A DNA stretch of 64,000 nucleotides from Pseudomonas syringae CC1557 (lineage in GTDB: Bacteria > Pseudomonadota > Gammaproteobacteria > Pseudomonadales > Pseudomonadaceae): contig NZ_CP007014.1 of assembly GCF_000452705.1 (NCBI RefSeq), positions 1,240,001 to 1,304,000 of the forward strand, read 5' to 3'. A program made the position numbers and the translations under genes. This document shows positions 5,304 through 41,815 of the stretch, piece by piece (positions within the stretch are counted from its first letter, which is position 1; every line of letters begins with the position of its first letter). Below the pieces are notes generated by a model. That model did no database searches, was not told the origin of the DNA, and saw nothing but the letters and a program-made list of their open reading frames with translations.

Positions 5304-6220
5304 GCGGGCTGGCAGCCCGGTGCGACGAGAAACTCCAGCAACGCCTTTTGCGCGTGCAGGCGGTTTTCGGCCTGATCCCAGGCAACCGAACGAGGGTCAT
5401 CCAGTACATCGACACTGATTTCTTCGCCGCGATGGGCGGGCAGGCAGTGCATGAACAGCACGTCCTTGTCGGCCAGGTCGAGCAGGGCGCGTGTGACCTG
5501 AAACGGCGCGAACAATTTCTTGCGCCGAGCGGTTTCCTCTTCCTGGCCCATGGAGGTCCACACATCGGTGCTGACCAGATGAGCCCCGGTGACCGCCGCC
5601 TGTGGATCGCGAACCACCGTCACCCGGTCACCGGCCAGCGCCAGAAACTCGGGGTTGGGTTCGTAGCCGGCAGGGCAGGCCACGCGCAACTGGAAGTCGA
5701 ATTGAATCGCCGCTTCTATATAGCTGTTGCACATGTTGTTGCCATCGCCGATCCAGGCCACGGTCTTGCCCTTGATCGAGCCGCGATGCTCAAGGAAGGT
5801 CTGCATGTCGGCCAGTAACTGGCAAGGATGCAGGTCATCGGACAGGCCATTGATCACCGGTACGCGGGAGTTGGCAGCGAATTCCGTCAGATTGCTATGT
5901 GCATAGGTGCGGATCATTACCGCATCAAGCATGCGCGACATGACTTTTGCACTGTCGGCCACCGGCTCGCCACGGCCCAATTGAGTGTCGCGATGCGACA
6001 AAAAGATTGCCTGACCACCCAGATGAATCATCCCTGCTTCAAACGAAAGACGGGTACGTGTCGAGGATTTTTCAAAGATCATCCCCAGCACCCGGTTTTT
6101 CAGCGGCTCAAAGAGTACGCCGCGATTTCGCAGGTCTTTGAGCTCTACGCCACGACGGATCAAGCCCAGAAGTTCGTCCGGGGTGTAATCCATCATCGAG
6201 AGAAAGTGCCTGGGGTTCAT
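5300..6220 (-). CDS. argF: Ornithine carbamoyltransferase (anabolic)
   Basis: A 306-residue enzyme that converts ornithine and carbamoyl phosphate to citrulline in arginine biosynthesis. The carbamoyl-phosphate loop [12 protein letters not shown] is at about residues 51-62 and the ornithine-site motif [12 protein letters not shown] is near residue 255. Length and motifs fit the anabolic ArgF. The first pathway partner in this window, argG, is at 13.8 kb. The stop overlaps the start of an ABC ATPase gene by 4 bases. The upstream region is long and AT-rich near the start. Confidence 0.96.
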
Positions 6221-6670
6221 GATTAACTACCTTTTTTGCAACAGACCGCAGGTTATCAAAGCCGGTTTTTATCGGGAAAACGGCCAGACCTGCGGCGGAA
6301 GCCGCACGGGGCGACGAATAGGAAAGGCGCGATAGTATAAAAAAATGTCGCGTCTTACCAATAGCATGCGTATTTCGGAGAAGCCAACGTCACTGGCGCT
6401 GCCCGTCGAGGCACGCCGTCATGGTTCAGTGACGCGCTAAAAGTTGACTATGCTGAGGAGGCTAATAGCCACCTCCGGCTTTTCCGAAGGCAGCATTTGT
6501 ACACTGCTCAAATAGCGCTTGGCAATTAGTACCAATCCTGCAACAGTCCGCTTTTACGCGGGCGCGCTTAATATGAAAGACGTCATGGAATTGAAACCGT
6601 GGCCGTTCCTTTAATGCCTTGCGTAGGTTATAAAACAGTGCCGATACATTACTGATCGAGGGGTGGGGGA
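6221..6670. other. Intergenic region between divergent argF and a small gene
   Basis: This 450-base region has no convincing gene. The part next to argF includes an A/T-rich promoter-like stretch near 6330-6350, which suggests a minus-strand promoter. A 72-codon open frame on the minus strand (6462-6680) overlaps the start of the next gene and has no features of a protein. Confidence 0.5.
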
Positions 6671-32749: not shown

Positions 32750-34453
32750 TCAGTTGAGCAGGTCTTGTAACGTCACCAGACTGTCCGCTTCCGCAACCGG
32801 CTTGTCCTGACGCCAGCGCAGCATGCGCGGGAAGCGCACGGCAATGCCGCTTTTGTGGCGTTTGGACAGCGCGATGCCTTCAAAACCCAGTTCAAATACC
32901 AGCGTCGGCGTCACGCTGCTCACCGGTCCGAATTTTTCGACGGTGGTCTTGCGAACGATAGCGTCGACTTTGCGCATCTCTTCGTCGGTCAGCCCCGAGT
33001 AGGCCTTGGCGAATGGCACCAGTGTGCGCTCGCTTGCTTCCGGCGGGCCGTCCCAGACGGCAAAGGTGTAATCGCTATAAAGGCTGGCACGTCGCCCATG
33101 ACCGCGTTGCGCATAGATCAGCACGGCATCGACACTGAACGGGTCGATCTTCCATTTCCACCACACGCCCATGTCCTTGGTGCGCCCGACGCCATATAAG
33201 GAGTCGCGGGCCTTGAGCATCATGCCCTCGACACCCAGGCTGCGAGAGGCTTCGCGCTGGGTGGCCAAGTCCAGCCAGTCCTTGCCCTTGAGCACCGGGG
33301 AGGGCATCAGCACCTCGCTCTGGCAGCTTTCGATCAGGCCTTCCAGTTGGGTGCGACGCTCGTGTTGCGGTCGGCTGCGCCAGTCATCGCCCTGCCACTC
33401 CAGCAGGTCATAGGCCAGCACCACCACAGGTACGTCGGTCAGGATTTTTTTGCCCAGGGTTTTGCGGCCAATGCGTTGTTGCAGCAGGGCGAACGGTTGC
33501 ACCGACGGCGCAGCCTGTGGCGCGTCGCTGTTCAAGGCGAACTCTGCGTCGCTGTCAGGGCTTGCCTCGGGTGCTTTCCAGACCACGATTTCGCCGTCGA
33601 TAACGGTGCCGTCCGGCAGGCATTTCACCAGGCTGTGCAGTTCCGGAAAACGGTCAGTCACCAGTTCCTCACCCCGCGACCAGATCCACAACCTGCCGTC
33701 ACGTTTGACTAACTGCGCACGAATGCCATCCCACTTCCATTCCACCTGCCAGTTTTCGGCAGCGCCCAGCAGCGTTTCGAACTGGTCGACGGGCTGTTGC
33801 AAGGAATGCGCAAGAAAGAACGGGTAGGGCTGGCCGCCACGTTGCGCGTGCTCGTCTTCCGATTCAGGCGCGATCAGCTTCAGATAACGCTCTGCGCTGG
33901 GCCGATGCGACAGGTCGGTATAGCCGACCAGCCGTTGGGCGACACGCTTGCTGTCGATGTCGGCCAGCGCTGCCAGGGCACGGGTAACCAGCAGTTTGGA
34001 TACGCCAACGCGGAAGCTTCCGGTGATCAACTTGATACAGACCATCAGGCTGCTGCGGTCCAGTTGCGACCAGAACAGCGGCAGACGCTCGGCCAGTTCT
34101 TCAGGTGGCAGGCCGCGCAGTGGCAACAGCTTGTCTTCCATCCAGGTGGCCAGGCCTTCGTCGTTGCTGTGATCTGCCTGAGGCAGTAACAGCGAGAGCG
34201 TTTCGGCGAGGTCGCCGACCGCCTGATAGCTTTCTTCGAACAGCCACTCCGGCAGGCTGGCCAGTGTCATGGCCTGCTCGCGCAGGACGCGGGTGGGGAC
34301 CAGTTGGCGTGGACGGCCACCCGACAGAAAGTACACTGCCCACGCTGCATCTTCCGGCGCGGCGTTCTCGAAGTAGTCGCGCATGGCGGCCAGTTTGGCG
34401 TTGCTGGAGGTGGTGGCATCCAGTTGCGCGTACAGCTCGGCGAAGGCTTTCAT
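32750..34453 (-). CDS. ATP-dependent DNA ligase, repair-associated
   Basis: A 567-residue ATP-dependent DNA ligase. The nucleotidyltransferase motif I is EWKWDGIRAQL (AMP-accepting Lys in KWDG, about residue 238). Motif III ELHSL and motif IV DGEIVVWK follow, and motif V is in KWKIDPF. An N-terminal DNA-binding domain covers the first 200 residues. It overlaps the exonuclease gene by 4 bases. This is one half of the split repair operon. Confidence 0.93.
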   Translation of the reverse strand: MKAFAELYAQLDATTSSNAKLAAMRDYFENAAPEDAAWAVYFLSGGRPRQLVPTRVLREQAMTLASLPEWLFEESYQAVGDLAETLSLLLPQADHSNDEGLATWMEDKLLPLRGLPPEELAERLPLFWSQLDRSSLMVCIKLITGSFRVGVSKLLVTRALAALADIDSKRVAQRLVGYTDLSHRPSAERYLKLIAPESEDEHAQRGGQPYPFFLAHSLQQPVDQFETLLGAAENWQVEWKWDGIRAQLVKRDGRLWIWSRGEELVTDRFPELHSLVKCLPDGTVIDGEIVVWKAPEASPDSDAEFALNSDAPQAAPSVQPFALLQQRIGRKTLGKKILTDVPVVVLAYDLLEWQGDDWRSRPQHERRTQLEGLIESCQSEVLMPSPVLKGKDWLDLATQREASRSLGVEGMMLKARDSLYGVGRTKDMGVWWKWKIDPFSVDAVLIYAQRGHGRRASLYSDYTFAVWDGPPEASERTLVPFAKAYSGLTDEEMRKVDAIVRKTTVEKFGPVSSVTPTLVFELGFEGIALSKRHKSGIAVRFPRMLRWRQDKPVAEADSLVTLQDLLN

Positions 34454-35496
34454 GGCTGCGCCTCGCTGGCACTCGCTGTTTCAGGTTCAGCGGTGGCCGG
34501 GTTGCTGTCCTCTTCATCGCCGTATTCGGTACTGAAGCCCTGCGCGTCCAGCCCCAGTTCGCACAGATAGCGCACCAGTATGCCGACCGAGCCATGGGTG
34601 ACCATGACGCGCTCGGCGCCGGTCTGCTCGATGGCCCATAACAGGCCTGGCCAGTCGGCATGATCGGAAAGTACGAAGCCGCGATCCACACCGCGCCGCC
34701 GCCGTGTGCCGCGCAACATCATCCAGCCGCTGGCAAACGCATCGCTGTATTCGCCAAAGCGCTTCATCCAGCTGCTGCCACCGGCCGAGGGCGGGGCGAG
34801 GATCAGTGCCTGACGCAGGGCCGGGTCAGTTTTCTTGAAGTCGCCCGCGTAGTGGGTTTCCGGGATGCGGATACCACCTTCGCGATAGACACGGTTCAAG
34901 GGCTCGACTGCGCCATGGACCAGAATCGGCCCGATCTGCGAGTCGATCCCGTGCAGAATGCGTTGCGCCTTGCCGAAGGAATAGGCAAACAGCACGCTGG
35001 CCTTGCCCTGCGCAGCATTGCCGCGCCACCACTGGTTGATGCCTTCGAAAATCTGCGATTGCGGTGCCCAGCGATAGATCGGCAGGCCGAAGGTCGATTC
35101 GGTGATAAACGTGTGGCAGCGCACCGGTTCGAATGGCGCACAGGTGCCGTCCGGTTCGACTTTGTAGTCTCCGGAAGCCACCCAGACTTCGCCCTGGTAT
35201 TCCAGCCGCACTTGCGCTGAACCCAGTACATGCCCGGCTGGGTGCAGACTCAGCTTCACGCCATGATGGGTAATGGTTTCGCCATATTCCAGGGTTTGCA
35301 GATTGATGTCCTGCCCCAGACGCGAGCGCAGAATGCCTTCGCCACTGGCGGTTGACAGGTAATGCTGATTGCCGGTGCGGGCGTGATCGCCATGCGCATG
35401 AGTGATGACCGCCCGCTCCACCGAGCGCCACGGATCAATATAAAAATCCCCGGGCGGGCAATACAATCCTTCAGGACGAGCAACGACAAGATCCAT
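34450..35496 (-). CDS. Ligase-associated DNA exonuclease, beta-CASP/metallo-beta-lactamase type
   Basis: A 348-residue metallo-beta-lactamase-fold protein. The zinc motif HAHGDHA is at about residues 34-40; a later Asp-His pair is in LSDHADWPGL. The family is named for its gene linkage to an ATP-dependent ligase and is homologous to mRNA 3'-end processing factors. The stop codon overlaps the ligase start. It is the first gene of this half-operon. The upstream region contains the large palindrome at 35689-35769. Confidence 0.9.
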   Translation of the reverse strand: MDLVVARPEGLYCPPGDFYIDPWRSVERAVITHAHGDHARTGNQHYLSTASGEGILRSRLGQDINLQTLEYGETITHHGVKLSLHPAGHVLGSAQVRLEYQGEVWVASGDYKVEPDGTCAPFEPVRCHTFITESTFGLPIYRWAPQSQIFEGINQWWRGNAAQGKASVLFAYSFGKAQRILHGIDSQIGPILVHGAVEPLNRVYREGGIRIPETHYAGDFKKTDPALRQALILAPPSAGGSSWMKRFGEYSDAFASGWMMLRGTRRRRGVDRGFVLSDHADWPGLLWAIEQTGAERVMVTHGSVGILVRYLCELGLDAQGFSTEYGDEEDSNPATAEPETASASEAQP

Positions 35497-39309: not shown

Positions 39310-39516
39310 TCACGCGCCGTGGCATTTCTTGAATTTCTTGTCGCTGCCGCATGGGCAGGGATCGTTGCGACCCACGTCCTTCAGGGTATTGCGCACCGGC
39401 TCCTGGTGGGCGTGACCGCAGTTCGGACCGTGGACATGGCCGTGCTGGTGGTCATGATGATCATGGTCGTGATCGTGGTTGCAATCGGGGCCATGAACAT
39501 GGGCTTGCTGGTTCAT
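39310..39516 (-). CDS. Histidine-rich SEC-C motif protein
   Basis: A 68-residue protein. Fourteen His residues occur, most of them in the first 36 residues, in two copies of HVHGP(D/N)C(N/G)H separated by [13 protein letters not shown]. The C-terminal SEC-C zinc finger is [18 protein letters not shown]. The His tract suggests binding of Zn, Ni or Co. The ATG at 39516 was chosen since the codons upstream have no similarity. It is divergent from the PrtR-like repressor. Function unknown. Confidence 0.8.
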
Positions 39517-39620
39517 CGGGTGTACTCCACAGTGAAATCTGTAATCAATCTGGCGCGCATTATCCCGCAAATCATCGTCAAGCAGTAACAGTGCGTTGTT
39601 TTTTGCGTTCAGCGGTTTTT

Positions 39621-39633
39621 TTAAGTATGCTTA
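39621..39633. promoter_or_regulatory. Candidate operator in the repressor promoter
   Basis: TTAAGTATGCTTA lies about 55 bases before the repressor start. The extended TTTTTAAGTATGCTTA is repeated exactly at 40773-40788. The half-sites AAG/CTT make it nearly palindromic. Binding by the neighbouring repressor is inferred. Confidence 0.55.
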
Positions 39634-39689
39634 GTTTTAGCCGGGCGTTTTCAGCGTCCCTATATTTCCTGCAGCGCCGAGCGAGCCCT

Positions 39690-40346
39690 ATGACCAGACA
39701 CGAACGTATTGCCAAGGCCATCGCCGCCAGCGGCAAGAAGAAGGGCGAAATCGCCGCGCAATGCGGGGTCGCCAACTCGGCGGTTACCCAGTGGATAAGC
39801 GGCGAGAGCAAGAGCCTGCGACCTGAGAATCTCTACGCGCTGGCCAGGGCCACCGGCTTTCGAGCCGAGTGGCTGGCCATTGGTGAAGGGCCCGAGAAGG
39901 CTCTAGAGTTCGACGCCAACGTTGCCTTGATCGATCAGCCGGAAATGTCCTTTCGCTATCCGGTGATCAGTTGGGTATCCGCCGGGTCGTGGGAGGAGGC
40001 TGTGCAGCCTTATCCCGATGGGTTCTCGGACCGCTATGAAATCTCCGACTACGACTCCAAAGGTCCGGCATTCTGGCTTGAGGTCAAGGGCGACTCGATG
40101 ACCGCGCCCACCGGCGTCAGCGTGCCTGAGGGGATGCTGATTCTTGTGGACACCGAAGCGGATGTTCAGCCTGGCAAACTGGTCATTGCCAAGCTGCCCG
40201 CCAGCAATGAGGCGACGTTCAAGAAGCTGGTCGAGGATGGTGGCACCCGTTATCTGAAGCCGCTTAACCCGGCGTACAAAATGATCGAGTGCGGCGCCGA
40301 CTGTCGCATTATCGGTGTCGCGGTAAGGATGACGGCCAGGCTGTAA
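39690..40346 (+). CDS. LexA-like XRE-family repressor with S24 peptidase domain, PrtR-like
   Basis: A 218-residue repressor. The XRE-type HTH (about residues 14-62, GEIAAQCGVANSAVTQWISG) is followed by the self-cleavage site Ala98-Gly99 (SWVSAGS) and the S24 catalytic pair, Ser136 in KGDSM and a Lys in ATFKKLV. It resembles PrtR, which holds down pyocin gene expression until RecA promotes its self-cleavage after DNA damage. ATG at 39690 follows a GAGC purine stretch. The shared 16-bp sequences at 39618 and 40773 are its likely operators. No prophage genes adjoin. Confidence 0.85.
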   Translation: MTRHERIAKAIAASGKKKGEIAAQCGVANSAVTQWISGESKSLRPENLYALARATGFRAEWLAIGEGPEKALEFDANVALIDQPEMSFRYPVISWVSAGSWEEAVQPYPDGFSDRYEISDYDSKGPAFWLEVKGDSMTAPTGVSVPEGMLILVDTEADVQPGKLVIAKLPASNEATFKKLVEDGGTRYLKPLNPAYKMIECGADCRIIGVAVRMTARL

Positions 40347-40437
40347 GCCTTGAGCTACAGGCGTTTTTAGAGCTTCTATCGATTGCCGGCACTGCGAAAC
40401 GTCATACGATCTGCTTGCCGGAATTCTGCGCCTGTAA

Positions 40438-40457
40438 TACTGTATTTATATACAGTA
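40438..40457 (+). promoter_or_regulatory. LexA-type SOS box upstream of the DUF1654 gene
   Basis: TACTGTATTTATATACAGTA contains CTGT-N8-ACAG, the gamma-proteobacterial LexA box, as an imperfect palindrome. Its end lies 17 bases before the ATG at 40475, which fits repression at the promoter. Binding by LexA is inferred from the match. Confidence 0.85.
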
Positions 40458-40474
40458 AAGCCTCGGAGGTCATC

Positions 40475-40726
40475 ATGGCTTACCACCCAGATTCTACGTC
40501 GAGCACGACCTCTTCCTACGAGTTGATCGGCAGACGTATTCAACGGCTGGTCTCGGCCCCGGACGTGCAGAAAATTCAGTGGGTCATCGTCACGCGCAAG
40601 GATGACGAGCCGCTGGACAGCTGGGACAGGGTGCTCCGGGAAATCGGAGAAACCGACGGAATTCAGGTCGACCGCCAGCAGGACGGGTCCATCCGGATTG
40701 GCTGGCAACGCTACATCGATAACTGA
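40475..40726 (+). CDS. DUF1654-family protein, LexA-box controlled
   Basis: An 83-residue protein of the DUF1654 family, found in Pseudomonas and often next to damage-induced prophage or pyocin regulators. The conserved core is SYELIGRRIQRLVSAPDVQKIQWVIV and the C-terminus is GWQRYIDN. It has no membrane segment or signal. The ATG at 40475 is preceded by CGGAGGTCATC (SD GGAGG). The LexA-type box just upstream makes it a probable SOS gene. It follows the repressor gene in the same direction, 128 bases later. Confidence 0.85.
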   Translation: MAYHPDSTSSTTSSYELIGRRIQRLVSAPDVQKIQWVIVTRKDDEPLDSWDRVLREIGETDGIQVDRQQDGSIRIGWQRYIDN

Positions 40727-40772
40727 GCATTGCGGATGACCGACGACCGGATGAATCAGTCGCTTGATTATA

Positions 40773-40796
40773 TTTTTAAGTATGCTTAAATTAAGC
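40773..40796 (+). promoter_or_regulatory. Second candidate repressor operator upstream of the holin-like gene
   Basis: TTTTTAAGTATGCTTA repeats exactly the sequence in front of the repressor gene. It continues into GCTTAAATTAAGC (40784-40796), a perfect 13-base palindrome. The holin-like start lies about 190 bases downstream. Confidence 0.55.
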
Positions 40797-40982
40797 TTCC
40801 TTGTTTAGTATTTCGATCGACATTTAATTGCAGCAACGCAAGGATGCGACAAGGGCATGGCGGCCCATGTGTCAGACCGGATGACTTCCATTCCTCTCTC
40901 CCTGCCGATTTTCCGGCAGACGTTAAGTACCTGAGTTTTTCTGTGTTCGAACGGCTGTTATCTCTTGGACGGAGTCAGGCTG

Positions 40983-41309
40983 ATGGATCTCTTGAACGGT
41001 TTGGCAGACAGAGGCGAATGGTTGGTGGCCGGCCTGGTTGGCGCGATCATCTCTGGCTGGTGGCACAAGACGGCGCTGCCCGACTGGCGCGCCTGGATGG
41101 TTTTTCTCGTCACAGGCGTGGCCTGCGCAGTGTTCCTCACCGGCATTGCCAGTGTTTACCTGGGCGTTGCCGAGCCTCGTAACATCACCGGTGTTGGCTT
41201 TCTGTTGGGCTCGTTTGGTGGCGCGCTGATCAGCGCAGTCAATCGGGCGTTATGGGCAGCAGACGTCTGGAAGTTTCTGATGGAGCTGATCAAAGGCAGG
41301 CTGGGCTGA
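40983..41309 (+). CDS. Holin-like small membrane protein
   Basis: A 108-residue protein with three hydrophobic stretches (WLVAGLVGAIISGWW, about 19-33; WMVFLVTGVACAVFLTGI, about 44-61; and GVGFLLGSFGGALISAV, about 75-91). The N-terminus is short and the C-terminus is positively charged. That layout fits a small phage/pyocin holin. The ATG at 40983 has GGAG upstream. The context (repressor, DUF1654 gene, shared operator) supports a holin role, but no endolysin, spanin or tail gene follows. Sequence similarity to a named holin cannot be checked here. Confidence 0.65.
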   Translation: MDLLNGLADRGEWLVAGLVGAIISGWWHKTALPDWRAWMVFLVTGVACAVFLTGIASVYLGVAEPRNITGVGFLLGSFGGALISAVNRALWAADVWKFLMELIKGRLG

Positions 41310-41320
41310 GCATGATCCGG

Positions 41321-41815
41321 TTACCGGCGGTCTTTGATCAGGTCGCCTGGAACCACATCGCCAGAACGCAGGATGCGCACATTGTGGTGAAACAGAATGC
41401 CAGTCTTGAGCTTGCCCTCAAGCTGGTAATGGATGGTCTGATCAGGCTTCTTCAGCAGTTTGGCGATGTATCTGGCGTGCTGCCACAGGTTGGTCCGGAC
41501 GGATATCAGCAGGGTTTTCCGACTGTCGCCGTCGACAAAAAACCAGTCGCTGGATGTGCCCTCGGCCAGCATTTCCTCATTCAGCATGATTTTGTAATTC
41601 AGGCCGCGCACCAGCAGTCGTGAGTCATTGGGATTATCGACTTCGAAATACAGTTTGAAATCCTGATGCGTCAGCCGGGCCTTGATCACCTCGACTTTCA
41701 GCAGGTGCACTTCCGGGTCCTGAACGCTGTCAAAGTTCAGTAACGAGCATCCGCTCAGCCCCAACATGACCAACGCAAGGCTTATGAATCTTGTAATGTG
41801 CGCCTGAAAAGACAT
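41321..41815 (-). CDS. LEA2/WHy-domain lipoprotein
   Basis: A 164-residue lipoprotein. The signal peptide with LSGC lipobox (about residue 23) is followed by a beta-rich LEA14/WHy-like domain (DFKLYFEVDNPNDSRLLVRGLNYKI). The family occurs in Pseudomonas envelopes and is linked to dehydration or desiccation stress in general terms. Start ATG at 41815 chosen to begin the signal. It converges with the holin-like gene. Function here is unproven. Confidence 0.8.
   Translation of the reverse strand: MSFQAHITRFISLALVMLGLSGCSLLNFDSVQDPEVHLLKVEVIKARLTHQDFKLYFEVDNPNDSRLLVRGLNYKIMLNEEMLAEGTSSDWFFVDGDSRKTLLISVRTNLWQHARYIAKLLKKPDQTIHYQLEGKLKTGILFHHNVRILRSGDVVPGDLIKDRR

Follow-up and report, generated by a model that had tools for sequence, protein, structure and literature searches.

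We consider a short segment of the Pseudomonas syringae CC1557 chromosome, lying in a window of 64,000 nucleotides (the whole stretch of DNA that was analysed, in whose numbering all positions are given). Three co-directional genes on the forward strand occupy 1.7 kb of it: a CI-like S24 repressor predicted to cleave itself (39690..40346, 218 aa), a DUF1654 gene (40475..40726, 83 aa) and a holin-family gene whose product has about three membrane helices (40983..41309, 108 aa). The flanks are host genes, both on the opposite strand, with a SEC-C gene on the left (39313..39519; PF02810, 2.3e-11) and the gene of a LEA2-domain lipoprotein on the right (41321..41788; PF03168, 1.2e-16). A preliminary description of this DNA had proposed a compact module of these three genes with no phage genes around it. 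All three genes are confirmed; the 1.8 kb from SEC-C to LEA2 contain just three genes recognised by Pfam or PHROG, with tail genes absent, and the flanking genes scanned around the module include no phage genes. A few kb from the module (32750-35496 of the window) lie a cisplatin-response ATP-dependent DNA ligase and its associated exonuclease. In the open-access literature on P. syringae damage and holins, tailocins, explosive cell lysis and F-type tailocins, the locus is absent from the titles and the starts of the abstracts.

The repressor has all the parts of a lambda-like CI protein, that is, a helix-turn-helix and an S24 domain (Pfam HTH_3, 1.4e-6, and Peptidase_S24, 1.6e-27), a cleavage site and the catalytic motifs, and in a search of PDB sequences it matches the lambda repressor with an E value of 3.1e-30. 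Ala98-Gly99 and Ser136 stand in the translation where the preliminary description had placed them, and a TFKK motif is found at 176-179, within which we take the catalytic lysine to lie. The SAGS, GDSM and TFKK motifs and the recognition helix NSAVTQW are present in all 17 module repressors (CC1557 included), and the motifs suggest that the protein can cleave itself. The earlier label "PrtR-like" is loose, and CI-like is the better name, the best phage-contig CI proteins being 85-87% identical to the module repressor versus 55% for the tailocin repressor of the same genome. In a midpoint-rooted tree, whose bootstrap has not settled, the module repressors form one clade (support 99/82) beside the phage repressors L163-L165.

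The 16-mer TTTTTAAGTATGCTTA occurs exactly, on the forward strand, at 39618-39633 (operator 1) and at 40773-40788 (operator 2), which bears out the reported pair of sites in front of the repressor and upstream of the holin. The first copy ends 56 bases before the repressor start; 46 bases separate the second from DUF1654 on its upstream side and 194 from the holin downstream. Within the window the two exact copies are the sole matches at up to three mismatches, while shuffles give a mean of 0.12 matches and at least two matches in 2 of 100. Over the 5.8-Mb genome there are 10 matches (the two exact ones and eight with three mismatches), with no third exact copy, and 13 for the pattern read backwards, so that the site is not common. 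All 16 module loci retain, amid diverged surrounding DNA, an 11-base core ahead of the repressor and again ahead of the holin, with a CAG form at both sites in P. californiensis. It should be kept in mind that the operator patterns were defined after the sites had been seen, and that the counts here and below are not independent because the phages and the module genomes are related.

The same class of sites is found in phages. We take 81 phage-contig repressors with 150 bases upstream and allow at most one mismatch: a site is present within 150 bp upstream in 54 of 54 repressors with the NSAVTQW helix versus 2 of 27 with other helices, an association whose Fisher value overstates independence because the phages are related. 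A fixed 13-mer at up to two mismatches is found in 45 of the 81 upstream regions versus 28 of 1620 random windows. Downstream of DUF1654 (within 250 bp), all 45 NSAVTQW phages have an operator-like site; the share is 6 of 22 among phages with other helices and 49 of 1340 among random windows. In that stretch the NSAVTQW phages usually have an array of two or three sites in steps of about 22 bases. In nine of the ten phages inspected (L186 differs), one operator has a TTGAC -35 box at its edge and the next is followed by a TAAAT -10 box. Related phages have the order operator, cI, DUF1654 and operator array with an early promoter, and the module keeps this layout, its cI and companion gene being flanked on either side by predicted operators homologous to the phage sites.

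Aligned by eye, the predicted PL-like holin promoter of the module (40764..40792, forward strand) shares the plan of the phage promoters. Its boxes TTGATT and TAAATT are 17 bases apart and agree with the consensus at 8 of 12 positions in CC1557, with operator 2 between the -35 and the -10; a promoter consensus scan returned none in 39500-41330. The neighbouring second operator is kept at up to one mismatch in 7 of the 16 module loci. A conserved hairpin leader before the holin was considered and rejected, the stretch being missing in viridiflava- and congelans-type loci. The anatomy of operator and promoter argues strongly that the repressor would shut the holin promoter.

Between repressor and holin, the DUF1654 product matches PF07867 (Pfam, 6.9e-27), and the perfect CTGT-N8-ACAG box reported for this gene is found as CTGTATTTATATACAG in front of it (40440-40455, forward strand). 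Every one of the 16 module loci has such an SOS box no more than 60 bases ahead of DUF1654, there is one perfect box per locus in 32 of 32 DUF1654-family loci (the module and the tailocin of CC1557 included), and among phage-contig DUF1654 genes 64 of 71 have one within 120 bases upstream, for 66 such boxes in the 672 kb of these loci. The remaining seven of the 71 are without it, and a perfect box before DUF1654 is absent in L062 and L073. The presence of a LexA site at this gene, in locus after locus, points strongly to LexA control. DUF1654 is present in 85 of 99 Pseudomonas genomes, and CC1557 has three such genes, in the module, in the tailocin and elsewhere. Among the papers listed in the open-access literature, one mentions DUF1654 together with Pseudomonas. 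Another well-conserved DUF1654 gene (G000:C1:2154960-2155166, locus L075, with L101-L129) has a perfect SOS box in 30 of 30 loci and is apparently an unstudied SOS gene of the genus. As to the fold, a DUF1654 model with a pLDDT of 79.6 gives a best Foldseek E value of 0.41, none of 1030 matches reaching 0.001. The candidate identification of DUF1654 as an AlpA protein was dropped, its best PDB sequence match having an E value of 1.2.

The third gene product matches PHROG 2359 "holin" (4.3e-28), its sole Pfam match being Wzy_C, under the family cut-off. The AlphaFold2 model (mean pLDDT 84.5) has three long helices and a short fourth, so that family match and membrane helices are both present and the small three-segment, holin-like membrane protein described earlier is borne out. 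The description had tied the module idea to holin relatives, and these exist in phages: three annotated phages encode a member of the same family in a lysis cassette, together with a late activator, an endolysin and a spanin. By its family, the protein would kill the cell; the module contains no endolysin, and lysis would need one from elsewhere. The gene is open in 16 of 17 copies (CC1557 included). In P. cerasi (L092, about 6001-6345) the first part is out of frame with the remainder, and the loss of the holin is therefore tolerated there.

How widely is the module kept? The holin query is matched in 36 of 199 genus genomes at E 0.001, and the whole module stands in the same place in four of the 199 besides CC1557 (G056, G094, G066 and G192). 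A holin scan of named genomes gives 22 loci, of which 16 (L079-L094) have the order SEC-C, repressor, DUF1654, holin, LEA2; of the remaining six, one is a locus in Methylorubrum and five are holin relatives in Pseudomonas, and L095-L099 (only a holin in the stretch) and L100 are left out of the module counts. The three-gene set is thus conserved in place, as the module idea had called for. L079-L094 include a strain labelled P. graminis and two Pseudomonas sp., the other names being presumably those of the P. syringae group. The named and the genus sets are not additive, because L081/G056, L089/G066 and L092/G192 coincide, and since the 16 loci were found via the holin, they give no measure of how often the module is missing from the group. 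Mean pairwise dN/dS against CC1557, over dS of about 0.4 and more and with dS near saturation for some pairs, is 0.037 for the repressor, 0.10 for the holin and 0.16 for DUF1654, next to 0.018 for SEC-C, 0.18 for LEA2 and 0.14 for the next gene. These ratios show purifying selection on all three module genes. Among phage and plasmid records, 35 and 21 respectively match the module, and none of them covers at least 80% of the query.

We turn to the insertion site. In 104 of the 112 genomes mapped (of 199), LEA2 and SEC-C are at most 40 bp apart; the remaining eight are five with the module and three with gaps of 117-224 bp. The LEA2 end runs into SEC-C in the outgroups. Module genomes have a LEA2 with a different C-terminus and a LEA2-end-like sequence left beside SEC-C, which is the pattern that an attachment site within a gene's 3' end should give, and the LEA2 3' end is the likely attachment site. 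A prophage contig (L245) has a phage integrase gene (PF00589, 3.8e-17) directly before the same SEC-C gene, the one contig among 29 with a related integrase to have it; among the other contigs, L380, whose integrase is 80% identical, is the same contig as L220, with a related repressor and DUF1654. In G018 (L052, 1479-1694) a gap of 213 bp between LEA2 and SEC-C contains a second LEA2-end-like sequence and no module. It is possibly the scar of another insertion at the same site; the idea of a decayed module was rejected, no module sequence being recognised beyond the LEA2-end-like copy. A further variable spot adjoins the site of the module: seven genomes (L043-L049) have a gap of several kb from SEC-C to GST, with a TonB-receptor-like match in six (not L044).

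The SEC-C query finds 14 viral contigs, two of which (L244, L245) have most of the protein or an open frame, the others matching just a short motif end. L186, L243 and L244 are one and the same contig. Record L243 (1-19163) starts inside SEC-C, after which come DUF1654 and a repressor, then two holins, four tail genes (for the tail terminator, the major tail protein, the tape measure and a tail-tip protein), an endolysin-like protein and Rz. PHROG files the endolysin-like protein under head and packaging; that filing apart, there is no clear head gene among the 11 proteins scanned, the far end of the contig being cut. We read L243 as an F-type-tailocin-like cluster. Its repressor and its holin, which belongs to the family of the module holin, are 75% and 49% identical to those of the module, some other phage contigs being nearer (87% and 61%), and its repressor-DUF1654 pair points the opposite way relative to SEC-C. 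The SEC-C location is not among the tailocin sites named in excerpts of PMC7815802, PMC2647930, PMC10686165, PMC7969949 and PMC11332147. The module is best read as what is left of a prophage's immunity region, placed at the LEA2 3' end. What stands of the remnant first suggested, a stripped pyocin or tailocin cluster, is a lambda-like immunity region that stayed behind where a phage had attached; in view of L243, its ancestor may have been a tailocin.

Combining these pieces, we consider it probable that a domesticated lambda-like prophage immunity region has been rewired so that it controls a holin. The inserting element, a prophage or a prophage-derived tailocin, would have entered at the LEA2 3' end in an ancestor of the P. 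syringae group and then lost all except operator, cI, DUF1654, operator with PL, and one holin gene. In undamaged cells the repressor would occupy the two operators, thereby restraining its own expression and keeping the holin promoter silent. Upon DNA damage, activated RecA would lead the repressor to cleave itself at Ala98-Gly99, and holin expression would follow immediately, with no need for the late activator or antiterminator of phages. In parallel, LexA cleavage would free DUF1654, which probably tunes the switch, for example by acting on the repressor; such modulation is our guess from the position of the gene and from the precedents of DdrR and gp7. Both the direct release of the holin by damage-triggered repressor cleavage and the release of DUF1654 by LexA are likely. 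The holin would then depolarise or perforate the inner membrane and the cell would die; alternatively, together with the endolysin of a co-induced tailocin or prophage, it would bring about lysis. The stand-alone DNA-damage switch offered in the preliminary description thereby gains partial support, from promoter anatomy and selection.

The repressor could be kept for other reasons. It is conceivable, if rather unlikely, that the module serves mainly as resident immunity against temperate phages that arrive with the same operators and are silenced by its repressor, the holin being a passenger or an added alarm. Over the 66 N-terminal residues the repressors of L163-L165 agree with that of CC1557 at 60 to 62, the operator class of the module recurs in phages that have its recognition helix, and of the three genes it is the repressor that is most strongly conserved; yet this leaves unexplained the purifying selection on the holin (0.10) and the operator and promoter kept before it, and the repressors found in cultured P. 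syringae phages are just 61-69% identical over part of the query. We also regard as unlikely a guard with two inputs, whose repressor would both block related phages and restrain the holin, and in which two triggers would kill the infected cell, DNA damage or the disabling of the repressor by a phage product. DUF1654, encoded next to S24 repressors in phages, in the tailocin and in the module, would then be a general modulator of S24 repressors in Pseudomonas. That the locus is a decaying remnant without function is very improbable: a prophage origin and one disrupted holin among 17 copies would agree with it, but the low dN/dS of all three genes at such divergence, and the operators and SOS box kept while the spacers diverged, would not.

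CC1557 has an R-type tailocin of its own, whose two flanking genes encode an anthranilate synthase I domain and a glutamine amidotransferase domain and are read here as trpE and trpG. Along with the related repressor (55%), it encodes DUF1654 with an SOS box, an endolysin and an Rz spanin, and the module might give it a holin in trans for its release on the same damage signal, a helper role that we find distinctly unlikely. These parts would suit such a role, as would the absence of a second homologue of the module holin from the CC1557 genome at E 0.001. The sole candidate holin among the tailocin proteins scanned belongs to PHROG 2658 ("hol-like chemotaxis"); this protein may, however, be the tailocin's holin. 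The tailocin sheath is matched in 12 of the 16 module genomes, one copy (L080) with an internal stop, and has no match in the other four, all drafts (P. asturiensis, P. triticifolii, P. californiensis and sp. v388), which makes a purely tailocin-serving role unlikely. G018 has a sheath 89% identical yet no module, and from both sides it follows that the module is not tied to this tailocin.

If the rewired immunity region is the right reading, one group of plant-associated bacteria has a fixed three-gene, damage-triggered holin switch that is simpler than Alp. It would be a tractable system for self-lysis, leakage, and the release of vesicles or extracellular DNA after UV or mitomycin, and DUF1654, an unknown found across the genus, would become testable. 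The immunity region of lambda has the layout OR-cI-rex-OL/PL. The module is like it in having a CI-like repressor, predicted operators on both sides, a small gene (DUF1654) in the position of rex and an early promoter downstream. It differs in that a holin follows the promoter, where the first early-left gene would be, that DUF1654 has its own SOS box, and that CC1557 has one intact operator per side and no surrounding phage.

The Alp programmed cell death pathway of P. aeruginosa, as described in excerpts of PMC7969949, is chromosomal and phage-like, with a repressor cleaved upon damage and a putative holin, alpB, as end product, and acts via the antiterminator AlpA and the alpBCDE operon. 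The module shares with it the phage-like character, the chromosomal location, a repressor predicted to cleave itself after damage and a holin as end product; unlike in Alp, a single holin would be under the direct control of the repressor, and among PDB sequences DUF1654 significantly matches neither AlpA nor any other protein. The logic of the module resembles that of Alp, yet it is not an Alp member. In Pseudomonas tailocin clusters, according to excerpts of PMC2647930 and PMC7815802, a PrtR-holin block has the repressor adjoining the holin, and the Pf-5 holin next to the repressor is lethal in E. coli (PMC2647930, likewise in excerpt). The module resembles this block in having a repressor next to a holin, and differs from it in being without tail or lysin genes and at a different locus. 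DdrR and gp7 are small modulators of S24 repressors linked to the damage response (excerpts of PMC11332147), to which DUF1654 may be likened by size and setting alone. The module is thus best read as a minimal SOS-to-holin switch, a variant of the known prophage-derived death switches rather than a new category.
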